Assembly: GCA_021234155.1 (NCBI GenBank)
Contig: JAJEKV010000033.1
Span: 5,382,635-5,446,634 of the forward strand
Direction: 5' to 3'
DNA length: 64,000 nt
From: Isoetes taiwanensis
Taxonomy: Eukaryota; Streptophyta; Lycopodiopsida; Isoetales; Isoetaceae
The notes beneath the pieces were generated by a model. That model worked only from the letters and a program-made list of their open reading frames with translations, made no database searches and was not told the origin of the DNA. This document shows, in pieces, positions 31,150-33,275 of the stretch. The position numbers and the translations under genes are program-made. Positions within the stretch are counted from its first letter, which is position 1; every line of letters begins with the position of its first letter.

Positions 31150-33275
31150 CCCTATATTAAAAATAAACCAGCTTTTATAACAATGTCTTTCCTACCTTCA
31201 ACGCTTACTGATTCCGCCCAGCCTTTCCTCTTCCGAAAATCCTCCTCATCTAAGGCTATAATATCAATCTCCAAATAATTCCTGGAAGACTAAAAAATGG
31301 ATACATCTCAAAAAGCTTACTCCAGGTTAGGTTGATTTATTCATTTCTATTCCCCCTGTTTAACAAGCTCAAGTTACTACAAATAAATTACGGAAAAATC
31401 CATTACCTCACAAATGAGGTTTCCACACTTAAACTCTTCCGTCATAATCCCAAGGAGATATTGTAGCTAGAATTCATACAAGGATAAGCCGGTGTTATTA
31501 TGGGCATATGATGCATTCTGTCAGAAGGATGCATCATATGCCCATAATAACACCAACTTATCCTTGCATGAATCCAGCTTGATTTACTTCAGAAGGATTT
31601 TTACGATAAGCTGGTGTTGCATTCTCTCAGAGGATTTTTCTGACAGAATGCATCATATGCCCATAATAACACCATCTTATCCTTGTATGGGTCCAGCTTG
31701 ATTTACTTCAGAAGGATTTTTACGATAAGCTGGTGTTATTATGGGCATATGATGCATTATGTCAGATCCTGACATAATGCATCATATGCCCATAATAACA
31801 CCAGCTTATCCTTGTATGAATCCAGCTTGATTTACTTCAGAAGAATTTTTACGATAAGCTGGTGTTATTATGGGCATATGATGCATTACGTCGAAGCGAT
31901 TTTGTCATGTAAAAATCATTCCACGTCAATGTCATATGCCCATAATAACACCAGCGTATCCTTGTATGAATCCAGCTTGATTTACTTTAGAAGGGATTTT
32001 ACGATAAGCTGGTGTTATTATGGGCATATGATGCATTCTGTCAGAAGGATTTTTAACATGTAAAATCCTTGTGACAGAATGCATCATATGCCCATAATAA
32101 CACCAGCTTATCCTTTTTTAGTCCAGCTTGATTTACTTCAGAAGGATTTTTACGATAAGCTGGTGTTATTATGGGCATATGATGCATTATGTCACAAGGA
32201 TTTTACATTAAATCCTTGTGACATAATGCATCATATGCCCATAATAACACCAAATCCTTCCCGGCAAATCAAGCCGATTCATAAGAATATCTTTGCCGTG
32301 TTATTATGGGCATATGATGCATTCTGTCAGAAGGATTTTACATGGTAAAAATCCTTGTGACATAATGCATCATATGCCCATAATAACACCAGCTTATCGT
32401 AAAAATCCTTCTGAAGTAAATCAAGCTGGATTCATACAAGGATAAGCTGGTGTTATTATGGGCATATGAAGCATTCTGTCAGAAGAATTTTACATGGTAA
32501 AAATTCTTCTGACATAATGCATCATATGCCCATAATAACACTAACTTATCGTGAAAATCCTTCAGAAGTAAATCAAGTTGGATTCATACAAGGATAAGCT
32601 GGTGTTTTTATGCGCATATGATGCATTCTGTCAGAAAAATCCTTCTGACATAATGCATCATATGCCCATAATAACACCAGCTTATCGTAAAAATCCTTTT
32701 GAAGTAAATCGAGTTGGATCCGTACAAGGATAAGCTGGTGTTATTATGGCATATGATGCATTCCGTCCGAAAAATCCTTCTGACAGAATGCATCATATGC
32801 CCATAATAACACCATCTTATCGTAAAAATCCTTCTGAAGTAAATCAAGCCATATTCATACAAGGATAAGCTGGTGTTATTATGGGCATATGATGCATCCT
32901 TCTGAGAGAATGCATCATATGCCCATAATAACACCAGCTTATCCTTGTATGAATTCTAGCTACAATGTCGTTTAAGCGTGGAAACCTCATTTGTGAGGTA
33001 ATGGATTTTTCCGTAGTTTATTTGTAGTAACCTGAGCTGTTTAAAGAGTGGGAATTTTTTTTCCAGGAAATAGAAACGAATAAATCAAGTTGGAGTAAGC
33101 TTTTTGAGATGTATCCATTTTTTAGTCTTACAGGAATTATTTGGAGATTGATATTATAGCCTTAGATGAGGATGATTTTCGGAAGTGGAAAGGCTTGGTG
33201 GAATCACGCCTTCGGCAGTAAGCGTTGAAGGTAGGAAAGACATTGTTATAAAAGCTGGTTTTTATTTTACACAAT
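31150..33275. mobile_element. Foldback-type element, about 2.1-kb near-perfect palindrome
   Basis: Outer inverted repeats of about 310-330 bp (31150-31460 against 32945-33275) share landmarks: TTTTAATAT at the rim, GCTTTTATAACAATGTC, TAAGGCTATAATATCAATC and AATGAGGTTTCCAC. They enclose the palindromic array at 31455-32955. The symmetry centre is near 32220-32270. No transposase frame is present and the target-site duplication is unclear. The structure matches the foldback class: long terminal inverted repeats made of subrepeats with no coding capacity. The flanking giant arms are centred about 0.7 kb to the left, so the two palindromes are separate events. Confidence 0.8.
31455..32955. repeat. 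Alternating palindromic satellite array (about 21 cores)
   Basis: The core is GGTGTTATTATGGGCATATG followed by ATGCATTCTGTCAGAAGG. It occurs about ten times forward and eleven times inverted, mostly alternating, so neighbouring copies pair into hairpins with short loops. Many pairs meet at GGATTTTACATG/TAAAATCC. A second module, CTTGTATGAATCCAGCTTGA plus TTTACTTCAGAAGGATTTTT, joins the pairs: it points right in the left half (about 31550-32150) and left in the right half (about 32390-32860). The whole array is therefore itself a palindrome centred near 32250. Frames across it are translations of the repeat and not genes. Confidence 0.92.

Follow-up and report, generated by a model that had tools for sequence, protein, structure and literature searches.

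What kind of event gives rise to a palindrome whose symmetry is repeated at three nested scales, namely core pairs, half-arrays and the whole structure, in the genome of Isoetes taiwanensis? The window, i.e. the whole stretch of 64,000 nucleotides that was analysed, contains such a palindrome, which the initial annotation had described, correctly as to the three scales, and had attributed to a foldback element without coding origin. The nested palindrome itself is confirmed and can be refined to an array of hairpins (Table 1); its arms and the array nevertheless derive from a gene for poly(A) polymerase (PAP). We consider it likely that the locus is a rearranged PAP pseudogene, shaped by serial template switching and a subsequent fold-back, and not a mobile element.

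Table 1. Positions in the window of the hairpin array, the two copies of the PAP pseudogene and the arms of the inverted duplication
Feature	Position	Strand	Description
Hairpin array	31472-32955	.	11 hairpins, 22 cores; mosaic decomposition with controls, copy scan
Left half of array, H1-H5	31491-32104	.	
Left-type linkers after H1-H5	31555-31612, 31674-31731, 31803-31860, 31953-32010, 32105-32161		
Central hairpin H6	32161-32252	.	Tip at about 32206, centre of symmetry
First right-type linker	32252-32296		Degenerate
Right half of array, H7-H11	32297-32935	.	Right-type linkers in between
Inner left arm	31155-31471	-	End of PAP central exon, intron, next exon; frameshifted
Inner right arm	32955-33267	+	Matching gene part in the other copy; frameshifted
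Third PAP exon, right copy	33325-33990	+	In-frame stops
Remnant of third exon and downstream gene part, left copy	28732-29392	-	First ~350 bp missing
Outer left arm	22036-29392	-	Interrupted blocks
Outer right arm	33620-40989	+	Interrupted blocks
Arm block pair	22036-22657 / 40361-40989		
Arm block pair	22657-24602 / 37834-39709		
Arm block pair	25648-27345 / 35633-37386		
Arm block pair	27514-28486 / 34612-35617		
Arm block pair	28732-29392 / 33620-34325		
Dispersed repeat, left arm only	29395-31155	.	1.76 kb
Dispersed repeat, right arm only	39710-40363	.	~650 bp; empty site in left arm

The array displays a 5-1-5 symmetry about the tip of its sixth hairpin. An ungapped scan with the 26-nt core recovers 20 copies that depart from it at no more than 7 of the 26 positions, and two shortened cores at 31613 and 32737, added by mosaic decomposition and reading, bring the count to 22, close to the 21 or so first reported; 15 of the 22 are exact over the 26 nt, and their alternation, first described as predominant, is strict, with forward and reverse cores forming eleven pairs. 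The linkers comprise two types, one following hairpins 1-5 and its reverse following hairpins 6-10, five of each, which places the reported flip of the linker at the tip of H6, near position 32206. The array also contains sequence unique to it, as exemplified by the variant ATTATGTC. Across the 1.66-Gb genome (1,658,258,908 bases in 1110 contigs), a search with 32 nt of the core, 3 mismatches being allowed, returned at least 18 matches, at least 17 of them at the array and at least one in a PAP gene on another contig (C190), and none was listed for the reversed control.

The identity of the source emerged from scattered genome matches of about 57 bp, which aligned as a protein-coding exon that we take to be part of a nuclear PAP. 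The six long open frames of the window matched no Pfam family above the cut-off; in the genome, profile searches gave at least 33 matches to PAP_central and at least 19 to PAP_RNA-bind at these loci, and in the window the array ends and the right arm match PAP profiles weakly (E 3e-4 to 9.6e-4). At the C190 locus (L011), all four of the translated exons are open, including (i) an upstream exon that matches the PAP nucleotidyltransferase domain (Pfam PAP_NTPase), (ii) the central exon, L011 810-1139, that matches PAP_central and the poly(A) polymerases of the PDB (9 distinct sequences, best 1f5a, E 1.1e-44), and (iii) two exons after the central one, stop-free up to the terminal stop. Further PAP copies, some with stops, are clustered at C955:20954-205831 and C1082:2080374-2195417, where PAP_central and PAP_RNA-bind lie in one unbroken open frame at several places, for instance C1082:2163058-2163684, an arrangement that suggests intronless, locally multiplied copies. 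Two PAP_central loci on a third contig, C1041:11074792-11075179 and C1041:11090625-11091009, are separated by about 16 kb and have scores that are equal or almost so; they are likely a recent duplication.

Aligned against the C190 gene, the array resolves into a mosaic of a single PAP exon stretch, L011 998-1064, laid down on alternating strands, together with about 15 bp of the next exon (L011 1221-1236). The right-half unit comprises, in order, (i) L011 1064 to 1001 reversed, (ii) the tip, (iii) 1000 to 1051 forward, (iv) 998 to 1015 forward, and (v) 1221 to 1235 forward, the left-half unit being its reverse and the order being the same in all hairpins. The remaining 118 of the 1484 bp fall into nine stretches, each 5-25 bp long and several of them linker variants, which were placed elsewhere or left unplaced. 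The mosaic scores 677 against the C190 locus. As controls, the reversed letters give -122, four stretches unrelated to the gene give -67 to -91, and masking of the two source stretches brings the score down to -76. Template switching is recognised by reverse-complement copies of local sequence, and such copies are found here in an alignment with controls; the joins between units share 1-3 bp, as read by eye without a control.

Self-comparison of the window places the array in the middle of an interrupted inverted duplication of about 19 kb (22036-40989), of which the framing inverted repeats of the initial annotation, although real and located at 31159-31470 and 32955-33267, form only the inner part. 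The outer ends of the homology fall, by eye, in (TA)n tracts. Flanking the array are two divergent PAP pseudogenes, both pointing outward and both truncated at the 5' side, without everything 5' of the central exon; the locus combines two inverted gene fragments, disabling changes and a relative open in the exons examined, as in inverted pseudogene duplications. Besides the array ends, PAP_central was absent from the rest of the contig among the matches listed. Each arm has acquired its own dispersed repeat. The left one sits where about 350 bp of the gene is missing and has at least 74 genome matches listed (40 of 106 candidates scored), many of them near full-length at 86-96% identity; for the right one, dozens of copies at 85-93% were found among the 40 scored of 6368 candidates. 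The right-arm repeat has a CTTCC-rich end and is perhaps SINE-like. One pair of segments, 25222-25643 and 37394-37809 (86%), has the same orientation in both arms where an inverted one would be expected, so that a small inversion may have affected one of them. Outside the palindrome, 18589-18993 and 46071-46476 form an inverted pair of 74% identity beside reverse-transcriptase-like frames at 45196-46046, presumably old LINE copies.

A foldback or MITE-like DNA transposon with subrepeat-built ends would provide for inverted repeats and subrepeats without a long open frame of its own, yet we give this candidate next to no credence and rejected it, since the arms and the array consist of PAP exon and intron sequence that passes without a break into the remainder of the gene, and the arm homology continues far past the proposed ends; at the right end, PAP gene and flank sequence simply run on. 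A search for other copies with the same outer ends had been suggested. When the left arm is searched against the genome, the four matches listed are the arm, its mirror counterpart in the window, and one PAP copy each on C190 and C930, and none of the genome matches listed shows the same ends framing an array elsewhere. Likewise, a conserved target-site duplication was not found, there being no discrete ends at which to look for one.

Could the palindrome have arisen in the assembly? The published I. taiwanensis assembly is described as comprising 1658.30 Mb in 204 scaffolds and 909 unplaced contigs, obtained from nanopore reads, optical mapping and gap filling (PMC8566536). Hairpin reads from the nanopore or mis-joined haplotypes might in principle yield a false palindrome or a wrong number of units, and a relative of the locus on contig C930 has a run of N at exactly this place. 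We regard such an artefact as improbable, considering that over six blocks, the inner arms included, the arms differ at 259 of 6079 sites (4.3%; 2.5% to 6.7% per block), with more transitions than transversions (167 against 92) and 41 gap events, and that a separate repeat is inserted in each arm. An artefact of reading is disfavoured because its arms, once polished, would be near-identical.

The C930 relative provides a partial second copy, in line with the expectation that one should exist: it carries the right-hand flank at 90-93% identity and one degraded H11-like hairpin at the edge of a 6,932-bp run of N (10716948-10723879), but inward of this point the sequence is that run. A full second palindrome was considered there and discarded, the matches left of the run reaching 76-85% in scrambled order; given that identity and order, C930:10705802-10706057 and C930:10715799-10716515 may be other repeats. 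The PAP part of this copy (C930a; L012 981-2401, equivalent to C930:10723880-10725300) lies beside the run of N and shows 144 private differences in two regions (27 and 117), compared with about 3% in the flank 13 kb away. Such divergence would fit the edge of a contig that was poorly polished, and C930a accordingly lends weak support to the history that follows. In the flank, C930 and the left and right copies of the window are about equidistant (2.9%, 3.35% and 3.5%). At 19 sites C190 alone differs from the left copy, the right copy and C930; these are uninformative without an outgroup, and only frame-breaking changes were used. The left copy, the right copy and C930a have all lost 1 bp in the exon that follows the central one, with a shift of frame that C190 lacks, and TAA stops in the exon following the frameshifted one are common to the right copy and C930a. 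Because the frameshift and the stops are shared among copies, the source of the duplication was probably already a pseudogene.

The order in which the array and the large duplication arose can be partly read from the hairpins. Their mirror pairing across the centre ranks first of 120 pairings, and the loop lengths of mirror pairs are similar: 12/12, 25/26, 19/26, 40/42 and 42/42, counting six bases before the shortened tip of H2. Since mirror hairpins match best, an array formed first and folded back second is favoured, and the array probably predates the inverted duplication, with later growth possible. Linkers taken alone rank the mirror pairing 30th of 120 (hairpins and linkers together rank it first), and some direct hairpin comparisons score as high as mirrored ones; for both reasons the order of events appears blurred by exchange between units. 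The opposite order, in which a lone hairpin was the centre of the inverted duplication from the start and the array expanded later by unequal exchange and gene conversion across the two halves, would fit the near uniformity of the cores and the linkers that do not favour mirror pairing. We judge it a minor possibility, given the loop lengths and top rank of the mirror pairs and the equal numbers of units, five and five, on either side.

Under the favoured order, array before fold-back, the replication machinery would have switched template repeatedly inside the exon of a PAP pseudogene, and once into the next exon, at very short microhomologies, generating a tandem series of hairpin-plus-linker units. 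On reaching the tip of the last hairpin, the innermost one, synthesis would then have reversed its direction, copying the 3' half of the gene and its flank in inverted orientation and rejoining at a (TA)n tract. This fold-back would account for the 5-1-5 array and the large palindrome and for the loss of the 5' half of the gene, which could also have gone in a separate loss. Afterwards, the arms would have drifted apart, each gaining its own repeat.

Does such a structure have a function? The default reading is that it has none and represents the fossil of a replication error, a palindrome that could form cruciforms or, if transcribed, double-stranded RNA. Treated as RNA, 2116 nt of the region fold at -1493 kcal/mol on the plus strand and -1495 kcal/mol on the minus strand, or at -903 kcal/mol (-924 on the minus strand) with pairs limited to a span of 130, compared with -470 to -478 kcal/mol for six mononucleotide shuffles. 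Of 1465 positions in the array, 77 begin an exact 21-mer of C190 in sense and 74 one in antisense orientation. Most cores are identical to C190 for 26-29 nt, the outermost core being the only place with longer matches, and the whole palindrome shares 748 of the 2381 C190 21-mers. These exact matches of small-RNA length to a relative with open exons speak of capacity, not of use. A functional inverted-repeat pseudogene, transcribed and diced into small RNAs that silence C190-type PAP, could draw on both the strong fold-back and these 21-mers, with the soybean GmIRCHS locus, for which silencing of chalcone synthase in this manner has been proposed, serving as precedent (PMC13051633).

Selection on the core, suggested by its near-identity, was dropped because core and arms proved indistinguishable when mirror pairs were compared. 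Mirror copies of the core differ at 17 of 275 sites, against 259 of 6079 in the arms (p = 0.13), and the divergence of the core is not below that of the linkers either (p = 0.24); 8 of the 17 differences come from the shortened H2 core and 5 from one H4 core. Linkers diverge more than arms (21 of 232, p = 0.0017, in four of the five mirror pairs, the degenerate pair excluded), and the tips are the most divergent between mirror copies (23 of 132). A core that is no less divergent than arms or linkers weighs against silencing, which we hold to be unlikely; an Rfam scan of 30000-34500 retrieved nothing at gathering scores, which says little on function and carries little weight here. Silencing and the origin proposed above can hold together. 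With a similarly small probability, the eleven tandem hairpins may constitute a compact, multi-copy small-RNA precursor directed at C190-type PAP, template switching being the process that would make the stems and keep them matched.

Inverted pseudogene duplication is a known kind of rearrangement, and the locus is a variant of it. One model of plant microRNA origin reportedly starts from a gene fragment copied in inverted orientation, its possible target being an intact relative; the present locus resembles it in both respects, but comprises eleven hairpins instead of one and is known from its sequence. GmIRCHS seems the nearest working analogue, whereas the nearest mechanisms would be template-switch hairpin mutations and ODIRA. 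GmIRCHS is described as a chalcone synthase pseudogene in tail-to-tail arrangement; its arms measure 1,087 bp with 78 bp between them, a promoter is fused to it, and double-stranded RNA has been detected (PMC13051633). As far as that description goes, both loci are closely spaced inverted repeats of a truncated pseudogene with intact relatives in the genome; here, in contrast, the arms are divergent and kilobases long, a multi-hairpin array lies between them, and what is known comes from the DNA alone. Template-switch hairpin mutations, reported as single events in RNA genes, likewise create near-perfect stems from short local reverse-complement copies (PMC8794818), whereas the Isoetes events appear serial and amplified within one protein-coding exon. 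ODIRA, a fork fold-back model, is described for yeast inverted triplications (PMC10766183), in contrast to an old plant inverted duplication apparently centred on a pre-built hairpin array. The open-access literature searched yielded no account of several hairpins derived from one exon and arrayed in the middle of a palindromic gene duplication, nothing related on PAP with inverted repeats, pseudogenes or hairpins, and, on template switching and siRNA, general precedents only.

The locus carries a warning: what looks like a foldback element without coding origin may in fact be an exon that has been scrambled. It also keeps a partly readable order, from strand-switching exon pieces to a hairpin array to the apparent fold-back point of a larger palindrome, and if the array did precede the fold-back, a single fossil would connect template-switch mutations of small size with inverted duplications on the kilobase scale. 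The locus further shows a route by which a gene could yield a multi-hairpin precursor directed against its own family. Should the hairpins act as a small-RNA precursor, a palindrome made of its own pseudogene would tune an enzyme that is central to mRNA processing.
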